A stretch of 64,000 bases of DNA from Roseibacillus sp. (lineage in GTDB: Bacteria; Verrucomicrobiota; Verrucomicrobiia; Verrucomicrobiales; Akkermansiaceae). Positions 49,664 through 58,768 of this stretch are shown one piece after another. The stretch is from assembly GCA_002686085.1 (NCBI GenBank), contig NZAC01000011.1:106539-170538 (forward strand), written 5' to 3'. Each line of letters opens with the position of its first letter. The first letter of the stretch is position 1. The translations under genes and the position numbers were made by a program. The notes under the pieces are model-generated. The model saw only the letters and a program-made list of their open reading frames with translations. It was not told the origin of the DNA and did no database searches.

Positions 49664-50598
49664 GCCTCACCCTCCTCTCCGACGTCCCTGCTGCTCACCT
49701 CGAGATACACATCCTCAAGCGAGCGCCGGACCGGAGTAAGTTTCCGCAAGGCCACTCCAGCGCCGACAAGCTCACCTGCGACATCGGCAGGATCGGTCCC
49801 CTCAGGAAAAACCACCCTCGAGGAACCTTCTTCCTTCTTCCCTCCCAATCTCTGATAACACATCGCCGCTTGCGCAGATGGATCCGCCTCGATCTCGAGC
49901 GTCACCTGCTCGTCCGCGATTCCCCCGAGCCGGCCATCATAAACCTTTCTTCCCTGCCGAACGATTGCGACCCGGTCACACATCTGCTCCACCTCTGAAA
50001 GAAGGTGAGAATTGAAGAGCACGGTGATTCCCCGCGTTTCGCGAAGTCCAAGAATAAAGTCGCGGAACCACTTTATTCCCTCCGGATCGAGGCCGTCGGT
50101 AGGTTCATCAAGTAGCAGAAGGCGAGGTTCTGGAAGCAACGCCTGAGCAAGCGCCAGTCGCTGCCGCATGCCGTGGCTGTAGGTCGAAACCCGGGAATGG
50201 ATCCGATCCTTGAGGCCCACTTCCTCCACAACTCGAAGAGCGGCCTCTTTCTCAAACCCTCCGGAATAACTCATCAGGACCTTGAGATTATTCCAGCCGC
50301 TCAGGTAATCATAAAAAGCCGGGGATTCAAAAATTGCGCCAGCATACCGGAGAGCATTCGCCCTTTTGCGCTGCACGGACTGTCCTCCAATTTTCGCTTC
50401 ACCATGGTCGGGCTCCACCATGCCCAGCAAGATTCCCAAGGCCGTGCTTTTGCCCGCCCCATTATGTCCCAGCAGCCCAAATATCTCTCCCTCCCGGACT
50501 GTAAAGGAGAGGTCTCGTAGAGCCGGCTTTCCCCCAAACGACTTGGAGAGATTTGCGGCCTCGAGAATTACCCCGGGATCAGAATCACTTGTCACCAC
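49660..50598 (-). CDS. ABC transporter ATP-binding protein
   Basis: GLLGHNGAGKSTALGILLGM; YSHGMRQRLALAQALL; LLLLDEPTDGLDPEG. Confidence 0.93.
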   Translation of the reverse strand: MVTSDSDPGVILEAANLSKSFGGKPALRDLSFTVREGEIFGLLGHNGAGKSTALGILLGMVEPDHGEAKIGGQSVQRKRANALRYAGAIFESPAFYDYLSGWNNLKVLMSYSGGFEKEAALRVVEEVGLKDRIHSRVSTYSHGMRQRLALAQALLPEPRLLLLDEPTDGLDPEGIKWFRDFILGLRETRGITVLFNSHLLSEVEQMCDRVAIVRQGRKVYDGRLGGIADEQVTLEIEADPSAQAAMCYQRLGGKKEEGSSRVVFPEGTDPADVAGELVGAGVALRKLTPVRRSLEDVYLEVSSRDVGEEGEA

Positions 50599-51220
50599 GC
50601 GAACCCTCCCACTGTGGGATCCGCATCCGCTGGATCAGCTCTCCCGCAATCTCAATCAACTGGAGAAACTCCATGATTTCATCCGGCTCCTTCCCCTCCA
50701 TTGCAGCACGCCATCCGGTTTGTCCAATTCTCTCATGCTCTTCCGCGGCATTCAGGAGTTCGTAACTCTCCAGCAGATCGGGTGGCAACTCTTCCCGCGC
50801 TGCCTTCACTGCTCGCTTGACTAGCTTCCGGCGGCGCTCAGCGGGTAGACTGTCAAAAAGTATGATATAGGTATCCAGTCCCTCCAGCAGGCGAGCGACA
50901 AACACTTTTCGCTCCCCCGTCGACAATTTGGAATAGAATTGGCTCCTGAGTTCGCTGAGACGAACCTTGGTGTCAGGGTTGAACTCCTGCCGAGTGAGGT
51001 CCGAAACGACTTCTTCGATTCTCTTGCCCCGAATCTCTCTCTCTTTTCCAAAGGGCTCTTCCTTCTTCCCCGACCAGTCTCTGAATGCGCTTTCCTCGAC
51101 AACCTTGCCCAGGTTATCCGCCGTTCTCCTCATTCCCCGAAAGTAGCCCTGAGCAGCCACTACAAGTGTCCAGATCAACACACAGATCAGGATTCCACTG
51201 CTGAAGACACGAACTTTCAT
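50585..51220 (-). CDS. Hypothetical membrane-anchored protein
   Basis: N-terminal TM (GILICVLIWTLVVAAQG) and helical soluble part; co-oriented with the ABC genes. Confidence 0.55.
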   Translation of the reverse strand: MKVRVFSSGILICVLIWTLVVAAQGYFRGMRRTADNLGKVVEESAFRDWSGKKEEPFGKEREIRGKRIEEVVSDLTRQEFNPDTKVRLSELRSQFYSKLSTGERKVFVARLLEGLDTYIILFDSLPAERRRKLVKRAVKAAREELPPDLLESYELLNAAEEHERIGQTGWRAAMEGKEPDEIMEFLQLIEIAGELIQRMRIPQWEGSRGDK

Positions 51221-51275: not shown

Positions 51276-53363
51276 CTAGTTCTCCCGCCCCCTGTCCGCT
51301 ACGAGGCTTGAGCGCAAGGCAGACAATGAGGTAGCACCGAGCGACAGGGCCAAGGCGCCGTATACCGTTATTCCTGTTCCTACAATCAGAGCGAGCGCAA
51401 TCATCCTCTGCCACAACGTTCCACTCAACCACGACTCAAGCGCAAGGCCTGCAAGGTAGACTACTGCCCCCATGAGCAGGCTCGCCAGAGCCATCCGCAA
51501 AAGACGTTGCCACTCCGAACGCGGAATCTTTACAAAACCATCCATGCCCCGCCAGAGAAGCACCACATTGACCCAAGCGGAAACTGCAGTTGCGATCGCG
51601 ATTCCAACGTGCCCGTAACCCCCGGGAAGAAGGAGGCGGAAAAGGAGGAGGCTGCACCCGATGTTCACTGCCACTGCCACGCCAGCCATGATCATGGGCC
51701 TCTTTGTATCCTCTCGTGCAAAGTACGCGGGCTGCAGGACCTTGATTAAGACATAACCGGGCAACCCCAGCGCGAATCCCGCCAAAGCCCACCCCGTCTT
51801 AGCCACATCCTCCGCACTGAATTTCTCTCCAGCAAAGAGACCCTGAATCAGGGGCTCGTGAACAGCCACCATCGCAGCAGCCGCGGGAAGGGTGAGAAGC
51901 ATGGCCAATTCCATGCCCCGAAGAATACTGTGGGCCGCTTCCGCCTCTCGACCACTACGAAGACGGCGAGTCACCTCCGGCAAGAGCACGATTCCAAGAG
52001 CAATCCCGATCATTCCCAAAGGCAGCTGATTGACCCTGTCCGCGTAATAGAGAGTCGAAATGGCTCCCTGCTGAAAAGACGCAATCACCCCACCCACCAA
52101 AAGATTCACCTGCTGAATTCCGGCGGCAATCACCCCCGGACCCATCAGGAAAAGGAGCTTTTTGAGTTCCGGATTCCAGAGAGGCTTGTGAGGAACCATC
52201 GCAGCCCCAGCCCGGCTACACGCAATCCAGAGAACCACAAATTGCAAAAATCCAGCCAGCGCAACTCCCCAAGCGAGGGACTTCCCTACCTCAAGATCTC
52301 CCTCCCAGCGCATGAACCACACCAATCCCAGAGATCCCAGCATGACAAGATTCAGTAGAATGGGAGCGCCCGCGGGAACGGCAAAATACCTGAAGGTGTT
52401 CAAGACGCCACTCAAGTGCGCGACAAGAGCCATGAAAAACAGGTAACAGAACATGATCCGCGAAAGAGCCACCGTGAGATCAAAATTCTCGGGGTGATTC
52501 CGGAAAATACGCAGGACCGCTTCCCGGATCTCCGTACCCTCGTCGACCTTTCCGACCATCACCCGGACAACAAAGTGTTCCATCCCGTGATCCTGCGGCA
52601 ACTGAATACGAGCCAATCCCGTCGGATCCATTCCAAAAATAACCTCCAATACATCTTCGCCCTCTCTTGGAACAAAGCGTTTCCGAGGATCAACATCACG
52701 CCCTACCCCGCTGTGCTTGTCCCCACTGAGGCTGAGCTGGGTAAGGATAAGCCCTTCGGAGGCGATCTCCTTCTGTCCACTGGCGACTATCGGGAATCCC
52801 TCATCTTTCAATGAGACCAGTAGCTTGCGCTTGTTACCCTCGGGGTCAAGGAGGTGCATGTCCTCGACCCTCGTTCTCGCAGACCAGTGTCTTACCGCAG
52901 CTTCGGACTTACCGGTAATTTGAAAGTAAATTTCCCGCGCACCCTTGACGTCGACCCTGGACTCATAAAACGACTTACCGTGACCGATTCCCCCAAGGTC
53001 TTTCTCGAACTTCGGCAGAAATCCCGGGACAACCACCATCATAATCCAGTGCATGCATGGAATCGCAACTAGGGTCAGGATCCCTACTGCCCAGACCAGT
53101 GCTGAAAAGGTATTTCGGGCAAAGCCTACTGCTGCTTCACTCCCCAGCTCTTCACACTTTCGACCGAAGAGTGGAACAAAGGCCGCATTATAGGCACCCT
53201 CGCCGAAAATTCGGCGAAACATGTTAGGAAAGCGAAAGGCTGCCACGAAGGCATCTGCCACCGGCCCGGTTCCCACGAACCTGGCGATCAGAACGTCCCT
53301 CAGGAACCCAAGAATTCGGCTCACCAAGGTGAGCCCGGACACCGTCATCATTGCCCGCAACAT
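51276..53363 (-). CDS. murJ: MurJ/MviN lipid II flippase family with large insertion
   Basis: SGLTLVSRILGFLRDVLIARFVGTGPVADAFVAAFRFPNMFRRIFGEGAYNAAFVPLF; ~170 extra residues before ENFDLTVALSRIMFCYLFF. Confidence 0.9.
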   Translation of the reverse strand: MLRAMMTVSGLTLVSRILGFLRDVLIARFVGTGPVADAFVAAFRFPNMFRRIFGEGAYNAAFVPLFGRKCEELGSEAAVGFARNTFSALVWAVGILTLVAIPCMHWIMMVVVPGFLPKFEKDLGGIGHGKSFYESRVDVKGAREIYFQITGKSEAAVRHWSARTRVEDMHLLDPEGNKRKLLVSLKDEGFPIVASGQKEIASEGLILTQLSLSGDKHSGVGRDVDPRKRFVPREGEDVLEVIFGMDPTGLARIQLPQDHGMEHFVVRVMVGKVDEGTEIREAVLRIFRNHPENFDLTVALSRIMFCYLFFMALVAHLSGVLNTFRYFAVPAGAPILLNLVMLGSLGLVWFMRWEGDLEVGKSLAWGVALAGFLQFVVLWIACSRAGAAMVPHKPLWNPELKKLLFLMGPGVIAAGIQQVNLLVGGVIASFQQGAISTLYYADRVNQLPLGMIGIALGIVLLPEVTRRLRSGREAEAAHSILRGMELAMLLTLPAAAAMVAVHEPLIQGLFAGEKFSAEDVAKTGWALAGFALGLPGYVLIKVLQPAYFAREDTKRPMIMAGVAVAVNIGCSLLLFRLLLPGGYGHVGIAIATAVSAWVNVVLLWRGMDGFVKIPRSEWQRLLRMALASLLMGAVVYLAGLALESWLSGTLWQRMIALALIVGTGITVYGALALSLGATSLSALRSSLVADRGREN

Positions 53364-53430: not shown

Positions 53431-54465
53431 TCAACGGAACGCTGCGCGGCGCAAACGGTCCATAATGGCAGAACCAAGACCCACATCGCTGACAGGCTCA
53501 GCCACGATTGCATCGATCCCCTCAGCATCCAGACTACGCAGGGAATGGAAAAAACGAACTGCGGCCTCCGCTAATTTCCCCTTGCCGGGGCTGAGGACCT
53601 CCACCCGGACCCAGTCATGGCGTTCGAGATAGCCATCCTTGGCCTCTCCCCTGTAACTCAGAAGAGCGTAGCGTTTGCCCTCTTCCGGCTCAAATTCCTC
53701 CGGGCTATCATGCAGCAGAACCGGAATCTCCGGGGCGTAATGAGAATCGAGGCTACCCGGAGCCTCTGGCCGATCACCCTTACCCCGGCCAGCTCTCAGA
53801 ACCTTGCCAAACTTCTGGAGTTCTTCCCGGGTTACCGGACCGGGCCGAAGCAATCGGAAGACAGGGCGTTTCTCTCCCACCTCTACTGCAATGATCGTAC
53901 TCTCCAATCCGTTCGAGCAAGCTCCTCCATCCACAATGAGGGGAATGCTCCCCTTCAGCTCGTCCAACACCGCACTCGCCGAGGTAGGGCTGATGCGACC
54001 AAAGCGATTAGCACTCGGAGCAGCGATAGGACCTAAGTCCTTAGTGAGAAGCCGCATGACCTCGTGCTTGCTGACACGCACTGCCACCGTAGGGAGGCCA
54101 CTGGTCACAAGATCGGGAATGTCCTCATGCTTTGGCAGGACCATCGTCAATGGTCCCGGCCAGAAGGCTTTTGCCAACTGCCGCACAACGTCCTCAAGTT
54201 CCTCGGAAACAACCGCTACCCGATGGAGATCCCGAATACCCGCTATATGCACAATGAGGGGATCGAAGGAGGGACGGCCCTTGGCCTCGAAAACCTTGGC
54301 CACCGCCTCCGCATTAAAAGCATCAGCCCCCAACCCATAAACGGTCTCGGTGGGAAGCGCCACCACCTCTCCCGCCCTCAGAACCTTGGCTGCATCCTCC
54401 GCAACCGCCCGCCAGTTTTCAAAGTCAGCTATTTCCACCCGGGTCTGCACGCCAAACTGTAACAA
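53431..54465 (-). CDS. L-threonylcarbamoyladenylate synthase (Sua5/YwlC); true start probably a few codons inside
   Basis: LRAGEVVALPTETVYGLGADAFNAEAVAKVFEAKGRPSFDPLIVHI; C-terminal Sua5 domain. Confidence 0.92.
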   Translation of the reverse strand: MLQFGVQTRVEIADFENWRAVAEDAAKVLRAGEVVALPTETVYGLGADAFNAEAVAKVFEAKGRPSFDPLIVHIAGIRDLHRVAVVSEELEDVVRQLAKAFWPGPLTMVLPKHEDIPDLVTSGLPTVAVRVSKHEVMRLLTKDLGPIAAPSANRFGRISPTSASAVLDELKGSIPLIVDGGACSNGLESTIIAVEVGEKRPVFRLLRPGPVTREELQKFGKVLRAGRGKGDRPEAPGSLDSHYAPEIPVLLHDSPEEFEPEEGKRYALLSYRGEAKDGYLERHDWVRVEVLSPGKGKLAEAAVRFFHSLRSLDAEGIDAIVAEPVSDVGLGSAIMDRLRRAAFR

Positions 54466-55097: not shown

Positions 55098-56162
55098 GTG
55101 GATCCCGTCATCGCCAAGCGTAACGTAAAGTTCATTGCCACCAAGCTCGGCTTTGACGATTGCCGGGTTGCGCCTGCCCGCAGGGCGAGGCATGCCGATG
55201 AGTTTCTGCGCTGGGCGGCGGAGGGTAAGGCCGGTGACATGAAATGGCTTGAGCGCGATCCCGAGCGCCGAACCGACCCCCGCAATATTCTTCCCGGTGC
55301 GCAAGCTGTTGTCTGCCTTGCCCTTAACTACTACCCGGGACCGGCCGACCCTAATCCAGCCTATCAGATCGCCCGCTATTCCTGGAATGAGGACTACCAC
55401 GACATCATCGAGGAAAAGCTCAGAGATCTCGACCTTGCAATGAAGGAGCTTGGCGGCACCCAGCGTTACTACGTGGATACCGGTCCGGTTCTTGAAAGAG
55501 ATATGGCAACCGAGTCCGGACTGGGATGGAATGGGAAATCCTGTGTTCAAATCCACCGCCGGTTGGGGGCGTGGTTTTTTCTTGCCGAATTAATCACCAC
55601 TCTTCCACTTGAGCCCGATACGCCGACCCAGAATTACTGTGGGAAGTGTATCGCCTGTATCGACACGTGCCCCACAAATGCCATCACTCGCCCTCACCAC
55701 GTGGACGCGCCAAGGTGCATTTCCTACCTCACCATTGAACACAAGGGCTCCATCCCCGAGGAACTCCGTCCTCTCATCGGGAACCGTCTCTACGGATGCG
55801 ATGACTGCCTCGCAGTCTGCCCGTGGAACCGTTTTGCAAAAGCCAGTCGTGATATTCGTTTCCATGCACGAACGGAAGTATTCGAACATCAGCTTCGTGA
55901 TTTCCTAGCGCTCACAGACGAGCAATTTCGCAGTCTCTTCAGGAAATCACCAATTAAGCGTATCAAGAGAAATCGCTTTCTTCGTAACGTTTGTGTCGTC
56001 CTCGGGAACGTTGGTGATTCTGGAGATCTCCCCGCCTTAGAGGCTGCCGTGGAAACAGAGGACCCCCTCATTGCCGAACACGCGGCGTGGGCGATCAGCC
56101 AGATCAAAGAACGCATGGATCCGACGACATGCACTTCAGGAGCTCGCAATCTCCCCGCGTAA
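55098..56162 (+). CDS. queG: Epoxyqueuosine reductase QueG
   Basis: CGKCIACIDTCPTNAI and CDDCLAVCPWNRFA Fe-S motifs; HEAT-like C-terminus. Confidence 0.93.
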   Translation: MDPVIAKRNVKFIATKLGFDDCRVAPARRARHADEFLRWAAEGKAGDMKWLERDPERRTDPRNILPGAQAVVCLALNYYPGPADPNPAYQIARYSWNEDYHDIIEEKLRDLDLAMKELGGTQRYYVDTGPVLERDMATESGLGWNGKSCVQIHRRLGAWFFLAELITTLPLEPDTPTQNYCGKCIACIDTCPTNAITRPHHVDAPRCISYLTIEHKGSIPEELRPLIGNRLYGCDDCLAVCPWNRFAKASRDIRFHARTEVFEHQLRDFLALTDEQFRSLFRKSPIKRIKRNRFLRNVCVVLGNVGDSGDLPALEAAVETEDPLIAEHAAWAISQIKERMDPTTCTSGARNLPA

Positions 56163-58001
56163 TTTACGCCGCATCCAATCTGAGAGAACGTCTCCTGCAA
56201 ACACAACCGCAACTCCAAGGAGAACATAAAACAGCATCTCGTCGTAACGAAGCCAGTTATGTGCGATTGAGACATAGTAGCCAAGTGATGAGATGCCCAG
56301 CATCCCGAGGATCGTTGCCTCCCGGATACAAGTCTCCCATCGATAAAAGAAAAAGAGGAGAAAGCGGTTGAAGGACAACGGAGCCAGGCTTCCGCAATAG
56401 GATTGGACTCGCCCCGCACCACTTTGGATCCAATGCCTCGGAACCTCTGGCCTCTGATTCTCCATCACCTCTCCCCACAATCGACCCAGAATGCCGAGAT
56501 TATGGAGCGCCAGGGCGAACACGAGAGGCCACGCGCTTGGCCCAAGTAGACCAACGAGGAGAAAGGCGTAGACATATTCCGGCACCGCCCGGGCGAGAAT
56601 AAAAAGGCTCCGGGTCAAAAAACCGACTCCACTCCACCACCAATGAACCCATCGGGAAGCGGCCCCAAGAACACCGAATGGCTCGCCCCGGGCGAGCGCC
56701 CGACTTCCTGCAGGGAGAAGCAAAGCAGCTCCCATAGCTGCAAGAACTATCGCTGAGCTGGCAATCGCCACGGTATTAAGCAGTGCCTCTGCTCCGTTTC
56801 GTGACCATAGATCCACCGCCCAATCCTTTACTGCCTTCCCCTTCCCCTCCAAGGCCTCTATCCGCTCGCTTCCGGATGCCGTAGAATTCTCAGGGCGGGC
56901 TGGTGCCGGGGTCAGCTTGGTAAGAAACCGACCTATCCGCGCATCCCGTTGCTCCGCAGCCATATTTATTCCGAGCTCTCTCCCATTGGTCCATGAGATT
57001 AAAACCAGCATCATACCCGCGAGGAGCCCTCCCCGCACTATCCAGTCGCGCGGCGCTGTTCGCCGCAAACGCGCTTCGGACCTCCCCGATTCCAACTTGC
57101 TGAGTTCCGGCACCGCCTTTCGAGTCGCGCCCCGGTTCAACCTATCTCGAAGGCGGGCACCCAAGGTATCAACTCCCACCACCACGATCACTAGGGCATA
57201 GAGCTGGGTCCATACCTCTCCATAATAGAGGCTCTCATAAGACTGGCGAATTCCCAGCCCGATGGTTTCGACACCAATGAAGCCAAGGACCGCGGACGAA
57301 CGCAGAGCGCATTCGAACCGATAGACGGTGTAAGTAAGCATCTCTGGTAATGCAGAAGGCAGAAGCGCACTCAAAAAGGCCTGCACCGGAGAGGCTCCCG
57401 TAGCCATGAGCGTGGAACGGGAACCCTGGGATTGCTCATCGATTAATTCGGAGAAGACCTTGCCAAGTGTTCCCGCGAAGGGCAGCGCCAGCGCACTGCA
57501 CGCCGCGATAGGGGCATCTCCAAGGGCCGAGAGAAAAAATAGCGCCCAGACCAGCTCATGAATCGATCGTCCCAGGGTAATGAGAAAGCGGCAACCCCAC
57601 CGGAGCAGGCGAAGCATACCTCGCATTATAGTCCTCCCTACGGGGGCCTTCCCATACCGCATTCCTCCGGGCCACCATGCGGACGAGGCAAGAAACCCCA
57701 GCACCAGTCCCGAAGGCACCGCGAGACTGATCGCGATTAGTGCATAACGGAAAGTACGAAGCAGGCTCTCTCCCAAGCGGAGGAGGAACGGACGAGCATC
57801 CTGGGGAAGGGAAGGATTCTCATCGGCAAGAGAGGGCGAAAGAGCTGCTCCGAAGAAACGTCCTGCCTCAGCAAAGGGATCCGCACCTTCACTCAGCTGG
57901 ATAATCCGGGGTCCCAGAACCCATCCGGAAACCAGGAGCACACCAAGCAACGCCACTACCGCCAGGCGCTTTCCAAGCCAGAATGTGCCTGGCACTTTCA
58001 C
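56136..58001 (-). CDS. phnE: Phosphonate/phosphite ABC permease, fused double PhnE
   Basis: 621 aa with two PhnE-like halves (IHELVWALFFLSALGDAPIAACSALALPFAGTLGKVFSE... and RAVPEYVYAFLLVGLLGPSAWPLVFALALHNLGILGRLWGEVME...). Confidence 0.88.
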   Translation of the reverse strand: MKVPGTFWLGKRLAVVALLGVLLVSGWVLGPRIIQLSEGADPFAEAGRFFGAALSPSLADENPSLPQDARPFLLRLGESLLRTFRYALIAISLAVPSGLVLGFLASSAWWPGGMRYGKAPVGRTIMRGMLRLLRWGCRFLITLGRSIHELVWALFFLSALGDAPIAACSALALPFAGTLGKVFSELIDEQSQGSRSTLMATGASPVQAFLSALLPSALPEMLTYTVYRFECALRSSAVLGFIGVETIGLGIRQSYESLYYGEVWTQLYALVIVVVGVDTLGARLRDRLNRGATRKAVPELSKLESGRSEARLRRTAPRDWIVRGGLLAGMMLVLISWTNGRELGINMAAEQRDARIGRFLTKLTPAPARPENSTASGSERIEALEGKGKAVKDWAVDLWSRNGAEALLNTVAIASSAIVLAAMGAALLLPAGSRALARGEPFGVLGAASRWVHWWWSGVGFLTRSLFILARAVPEYVYAFLLVGLLGPSAWPLVFALALHNLGILGRLWGEVMENQRPEVPRHWIQSGAGRVQSYCGSLAPLSFNRFLLFFFYRWETCIREATILGMLGISSLGYYVSIAHNWLRYDEMLFYVLLGVAVVFAGDVLSDWMRRKLRGEIASS

Positions 58002-58768
58002 AAGACCACCGCCTTGTCTCCGAGATCAAAGAGAGCCGAGAGGCCTTCACTCCCCAACTCAGAGGGTTTCCCATCGAAATGAACGTTTCCATGCTTGAGT
58101 CCCACAAGGCGCGGAAAAAATTCCCGTGCGAGATCCAGTTGGTGCATGGATACCAGAAGAGTCAGGCCTTCCTCTTCACTCAGACGAGTCAGGAGCTCAA
58201 GGACATCCCGGGCACGGGCCGGGTCAACTGCGGAAACGGGCTCGTCTGCCAGAATAACCGCCGGCTCCTGGAAAAGTGCCCTCGCCACCGCCACCCGCTG
58301 TTGCTGCCCGCCGGAGAGTGTATCCGCTCGGTCATACATTTTTTCCGCAATTCCGACCCGCTCCAGAAGCTCATAAATGCGCCGGCGGACTCCTACCGCC
58401 GGCAGGATTAAATCACGCAGGCTTCCCAGAATTGACCTTCGCCCGCATCGCCCTGCGACGACATTCTGAAGAACTCGCAAATTGGGCACAAGGCCCAGAT
58501 CCTGGGGGAGATAGCCCAATCGCGACCGTAACTCTCTGAGCTTTCGTTCCCCGAGAACGAGGGGATTGCAGCCCAGCACCCGGACCTCCCCACGGTCCGG
58601 TGCGAGCTGCGCTCCAAACAGGCGAAGAAGCGTCGTCTTACCGCTTCCGGAGGCCCCAATTAGGGCCACTCGCTCGCCCCTGGCGATCTGGAGATCGATG
58701 CTCGAGAGTGCATGCACTGCCCCAAAGCTCTTGCGAGCCTGGGAAAGCTCGAACACCGTCTCCATCAT
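57998..58768 (-). CDS. phnC: Phosphonate ABC transporter ATP-binding protein
   Basis: LIGASGSGKTTLLRLFGAQL; LSGGQQQRVAVARALFQEPAVILADEPVSAVDPARA. Confidence 0.9.
   Translation of the reverse strand: MMETVFELSQARKSFGAVHALSSIDLQIARGERVALIGASGSGKTTLLRLFGAQLAPDRGEVRVLGCNPLVLGERKLRELRSRLGYLPQDLGLVPNLRVLQNVVAGRCGRRSILGSLRDLILPAVGVRRRIYELLERVGIAEKMYDRADTLSGGQQQRVAVARALFQEPAVILADEPVSAVDPARARDVLELLTRLSEEEGLTLLVSMHQLDLAREFFPRLVGLKHGNVHFDGKPSELGSEGLSALFDLGDKAVVL

Follow-up and report, generated by a model that had tools for sequence, protein, structure and literature searches.

The murJ gene in the Roseibacillus sp. DNA analysed here (a stretch of 64,000 nucleotides, referred to as the window) encodes a lipid II flippase of 695 amino acids that carries a conserved domain between TM3 and TM4. 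The MurJ machine itself is known; what is new is a conserved periplasmic domain within the TM3–TM4 loop in one group of Verrucomicrobiales. With a probability of about 0.5, the whole explanation is a normally working MurJ equipped with an accessory periplasmic docking domain, the flipping mechanism being unchanged.

The murJ locus and the position of the insert

The features of the locus are compiled in Table 1. The murJ reading frame starts with ATG and has zero internal stops, in line with the total length given in the initial annotation. Matches to the TIGR01695 equivalog (E = 1.1e-112, 377 bits) and to PF03023 (E = 7.1e-97, 325 bits) lie above the respective cut-offs of 235.55 (curated) and 27.4. 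AlphaFold predicts the MOP/MurJ fold for the 695-residue protein, TM13–14 included (pTM 0.80), and comparison of the core with 7waw in Foldseek gave a TM-score of 0.92 (target-normalised).

Table 1. Coordinates of murJ, its segments and the flanking genes in the window.
Feature	Position	Strand	Basis or remark
murJ CDS, 695 aa + stop	51276..53363	(-)	ORF, TIGR01695, PF03023, core fold
MurJ residues 1-115, TM1-TM3	53019..53363	(-)	R16, R22, D23, D37, E55 conserved
Insert, residues 116-290, periplasmic TM3-TM4 loop	52494..53018	(-)	Alignments, 175 aa
Insert block 1, residues 119-183	52815..53009	(-)	AlphaFold pLDDT about 70-79; hhalign
Insert middle, residues 184-246	52626..52814	(-)	Variable, predicted disordered
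Insert block 2, residues 247-290	52494..52625	(-)	Three strands; LP..H conserved, N289 invariant
MurJ residues 291-695, TM4-TM14	51279..52493	(-)	R443 invariant
Threonylcarbamoyl-AMP synthase (Sua5/TsaC), upstream neighbour	53431..54465	(-)	Conserved with and without insert
211-aa protein, downstream neighbour	50585..51220	(-)	No Pfam match found; conserved in locus

In Thermosipho africanus MurJ, the cavity and gate residues Arg18, Arg24, Asp25, Asp39, Glu57 and Arg255 matter (PMC6465408). The first five correspond to R16, R22, D23, D37 and E55 of the protein described here, and Arg255 to R443, the latter equivalence being a motif reading. R16, R22, E55 and R443 are invariant in 43 sequences, D23 and D37 nearly so; the essential cavity and gate residues of MurJ are thus present. 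A second match to the MurJ profile in the genome, on C22, is partial and weak (E = 1.6e-10). Because the genome scan found neither a second clear MurJ nor Amj, the 695-residue protein is probably a working lipid II flippase, and the sole one.

The alignments of the protein to PF03023, TIGR01695 and every solved MurJ chain fall into two stretches, with a gap at about 117/287–290. In relatives that lack the insert, the same site reads 'PGF-..PE.FDL', i.e. PGF is followed almost directly by PE.FDLTV, and the bounds of the insert (Table 1) were set from the alignment with these sequences. An insertion of about 170 residues between TM3 and TM4 had been proposed beforehand; at 175 residues this holds, and the earlier coordinates are off by no more than a codon on either side.

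The insert is not peculiar to the window. It was found in 14/14 genomes of the same genus, in one of which murJ is divided between two contigs, and in other genera as versions of 118–188 residues, at the same site and in open frame without stops. The reading frame is hence undisturbed in relatives. An artefact of assembly or annotation, or an intein-like element that is spliced out, can be practically dismissed: many independent genomes share the site and the open frame, the insert is under purifying selection (see below), and no intein or other known element was matched at low threshold. Recurrence in genomes and purifying selection rule out an intein, a frameshift and a misassembly alike.

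The TM4–5 loop of MurJ, together with the loop-side ends of TM4 and TM5, is cytoplasmic (PMC6465408), which places the TM3–TM4 loop on the periplasmic side. The loop charges mostly follow the positive-inside rule in agreement with this topology, and the insert is devoid of a membrane span (maximum KD19 of 0.82). Together, these data strongly indicate that the insert is located on the periplasmic side, as claimed in the initial annotation; this puts it at the outer mouth of the N-lobe.

Two further observations concern the flanks. The 211-residue protein, which separates murJ from an ABC transporter, is conserved in the locus though diverged. Farther away, positions 56136–58001 encode a 621-residue protein with two BPD_transp_1 permease stretches, adjoined by an apparent ABC ATPase ORF (57998–58768); the former resembles two permeases of a phosphonate-type importer fused into one.

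Predicted fold and likeness to NPCBM domains

AlphaFold predicts strands at residues 119–122, 132–138, 144–151, 164–172, 178–182, 250–254, 263–269 and 282–287 of the insert, and a helix at 154–163. Block 1 comprises a beta-hairpin ('RVDVKGAREIYFQITG'), the short helix and two more strands, and resembles the C-terminal half of NPCBM. In the context of the full-length protein, most elements outside 184–244 are predicted with a pLDDT of about 70–80; over 184–244 the value drops below 50, and the length of this middle part varies among genera. Folded alone, the insert gave a pLDDT of 60 and a pTM of 0.64. The underlying alignments are shallow (18 and 43 sequences), limiting confidence in the structure of the insert. 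We therefore describe it, at moderate confidence, as a predicted beta-domain broken by a disordered loop of about 60 residues. The earlier proposal of a beta-rich domain within a periplasmic loop of a lipid II flippase is supported, the domain being soluble.

Database searches assigned no family. At low threshold, neither Pfam nor NCBIfam matched the insert, a sequence profile search of the PDB was negative, and Foldseek of the isolated domain returned nothing significant (best E of 0.25). With regard to the galactose-binding-like beta-sandwich typical of NPCBM, the data thus comprise a predicted beta-domain and a negative structural search. Likewise, 18 inserts searched against Pfam NPCBM (PF08305) gave no match at E up to 10. 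The sole non-MurJ protein retrieved by the insert profile at E below 0.05 bears an NPCBM-like permuted segment. In these genomes, circular permutation affects many NPCBM domains, with profile positions 86–136 ahead of 3–83, and the insert follows the same order. Such permuted domains (C-terminal half before N-terminal half) are carried by large secreted proteins in the genus and its relatives (L117, L119, L136 and L138, and also L144, L148 and L115, e.g. G000:C37:19512-19946), where the Pfam NPCBM model matches them only as two separate halves.

Of the families tried, NPCBM gave the best profile score. When compared with 20 permuted NPCBM domains in hhalign, the insert scored 31.6 globally (over 123 columns, with a pairwise E of 6e-6 and a probability of 68%), a value somewhat overstated as evidence, as the comparisons were picked after the likeness had been noticed and the E-values refer to single pairs. 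Laminin-G and F5/8-C controls scored 2–13, and column shuffles of the block profile at most 18. The signal stems mainly from the first hairpin; block 2 alone does not rise above shuffles. What is shared is the strand order, the hairpin 'V.V.GA..IY' and the subsequent '..LP....F......LRIF', in the same permuted arrangement. Conversely, the insert lies below Pfam detection, contains a long disordered loop and resides inside a membrane protein. The H/D-x-x-W motif at the ligand site of NPCBM is not conserved: HW is found in the genus of the window and partly in g8, whereas the region is gapped or missing in most other genera with the insert. In the absence of a Pfam match and of a conserved H/D..W motif, the insert is termed NPCBM-like and not filed as a member of the family. 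Its origin from a circularly permuted NPCBM-type domain may be considered, with moderate confidence and as probable at best. An origin from laminin-G or F5/8 type C domains was ruled out by the profile comparison.

Distribution, history and selection

Those relatives that bear a name are assigned to Roseibacillus or to other Akkermansiaceae or Verrucomicrobiales. Within the family of the window, the insert is present in genera g1, g8, g9, g12, g13 and g15 and in one genome of g10; in a second family, f2, it is present in g28 and g32. Among the genomes examined it is absent from g4–g7, g16 and the other f2 genera. A search of 390 Verrucomicrobiota genomes, drawn evenly, with the insert profile revealed the domain in three further genomes, all from the family of the window, plus two sub-threshold matches elsewhere, and most Verrucomicrobiota MurJs match the MurJ model unbroken. 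Almost none of the other Verrucomicrobiota examined carry the insert. These data rule out a PVC-wide envelope trait, and the suggested link to the atypical PVC envelope was not borne out. Four insert-less sequences (L026, L054, L230 and L231) have a TM3–TM4 loop that is 22–30 residues longer, rich in W/F in L026; these loops are possibly an intermediate or an independent extension.

In a FastTree phylogeny of the core, all 32 sequences with the insert form one clade (support 0.966). IQ-TREE also groups them together, with weak support (59) for the node that separates them from insert-less relatives. The gene order tsaC, murJ, 211-residue protein, ABC transporter is common to Haloferula, which lacks the insert. 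Because of this match in gene order, the insert was probably gained once, in Verrucomicrobiales, within an existing tsaC-murJ-ABC cluster. No clean loss was identified in the tree of the insert clade.

The f2 sequences and the g10 genome (G023) fall inside the insert clade and apart from their taxonomic neighbours in IQ-TREE. Their murJ genes (L023 in G023, L024 in G049 and L025 in G055), which represent a single genome from a genus that otherwise lacks the insert and two genera of the second family, are nested within it. This placement points to horizontal transfer of murJ together with its insert, or to replacement elsewhere.

The murJ of the window and its relatives in the core tree group with alphaproteobacterial MurJ, the single outside group in the tree, and apart from the other Verrucomicrobiota sampled (bootstrap 100). 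It is possible that this part of Verrucomicrobiales long ago exchanged its murJ for a laterally acquired one. Arrival of the insert along with murJ from Alphaproteobacteria was rejected, as the alphaproteobacterial MurJs compared do not have it. In one alphaproteobacterial record (L101), the MurJ match extends over 2.8 kb in two separate reading frames; this murJ is perhaps duplicated or broken.

Within the genus, dN/dS of the insert is mostly 0.1–0.3, compared to about 0.05–0.1 for the TM4–14 core, with about 0.06 as a summary value; one very close pair showed a value of 0.5 for the insert. The insert evolves about 3–5 times faster than the core, and both the LP..H motif and N289 persist in the two families. 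Judged from these ratios, the insert is translated and constrained, under purifying selection that is looser than in the core.

Possible roles of the insert

As the core and key residues are unaltered, the usual alternating-access mechanism most likely applies to the flipping of lipid II. The insert at the outer mouth would act as an accessory docking module, tethering the flippase near a periplasmic partner or gating it through that partner; a peptidoglycan synthase or the nascent glycan are candidates. The insert may also be regulatory, as suggested in the initial annotation. We propose the docking role tentatively. It fits the position at the periplasmic mouth, the intact core and the constrained but fast evolution. 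Still, fast evolution and a long, variable, disordered loop do not make a tight conserved interface obvious.

Alternatively, the insert could be a working carbohydrate-binding module of the NPCBM type that binds the glycan of peptidoglycan or the headgroup of released lipid II, and senses or pulls flipping. We regard this as unlikely: the profile similarity to permuted NPCBM domains of the same genomes, the permuted segment in the first non-MurJ match and the presence of NPCBM proteins in the genus argue for it, whereas the lack of any Pfam or NCBIfam NPCBM match among the inserts, the missing or gapped D-H/W motif region in most insert genera and a second half not exceeding shuffles argue against it. 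It is likewise doubtful that the insert is a tolerated structural ornament with a role in folding or stability at most, kept since clean removal is unlikely. Selection is relaxed relative to the core, the middle part and overall length are strongly variable, and close relatives with the same locus lack the insert, all of which an ornament would explain; a dN/dS well below 1 across deep divergence, the retention of LP..H and N289 in two families and the failure to identify a clean loss inside the insert clade speak against it.

Lysis proteins that lock MurJ are known for the E. coli protein (PMC10229422). An insert that shields the outer face of MurJ, or serves there as a decoy, against such phage proteins or antibacterials would be in line with the solved complexes and with an arms race as the cause of fast insert evolution, but there is no sign of positive selection, dN/dS being below 1 in all measured pairs. 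We know of no such phages for these bacteria, and the known resistance site lies in TM7 and not in the TM3–TM4 loop. This makes a protective function very improbable. The docking domain on an otherwise normal MurJ remains our preferred reading.

In comparison with solved MurJs (PF03023, TIGR01695; 7waw, 6cc4 and 5t77), the protein shares the fold, the 14-TM core, the key residues and the probable role as sole flippase; it differs by a 175-residue domain where these have a short TM3–TM4 loop. Mycobacterial MurJ (MviN) has extra C-terminal domains, and the added soluble domain is thought to control wall synthesis. That domain is C-terminal and unrelated, whereas the insert described here is internal and on the periplasmic side. 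TacF, Wzx and RFT1 belong to the same MOP superfamily as MurJ and act on lipid-linked glycans; the passages of PMC13385700 consulted describe them as proteins with 12–14 TMs and do not mention an inserted soluble domain of this kind. The set of papers searched held nothing relevant on MurJ in combination with Verrucomicrobia or domain insertion.

MurJ is essential and a target of antibiotics and phages; the common picture is that of a membrane carrier without additional domains. The coupling of flipping to wall synthesis beyond the membrane is a general open question. A glycan-sensing or synthase-docking module in MurJ might couple flipping to the state of the periplasmic wall in this one lineage; we consider this a speculative, rather unlikely scenario that, if true, would represent a control point not known for MurJ. 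Being a naturally occurring MurJ whose periplasmic domain is conserved, the protein offers a handle for a partner search, and syntenic relatives that carry or lack the insert (e.g. Haloferula) allow for a direct comparison.
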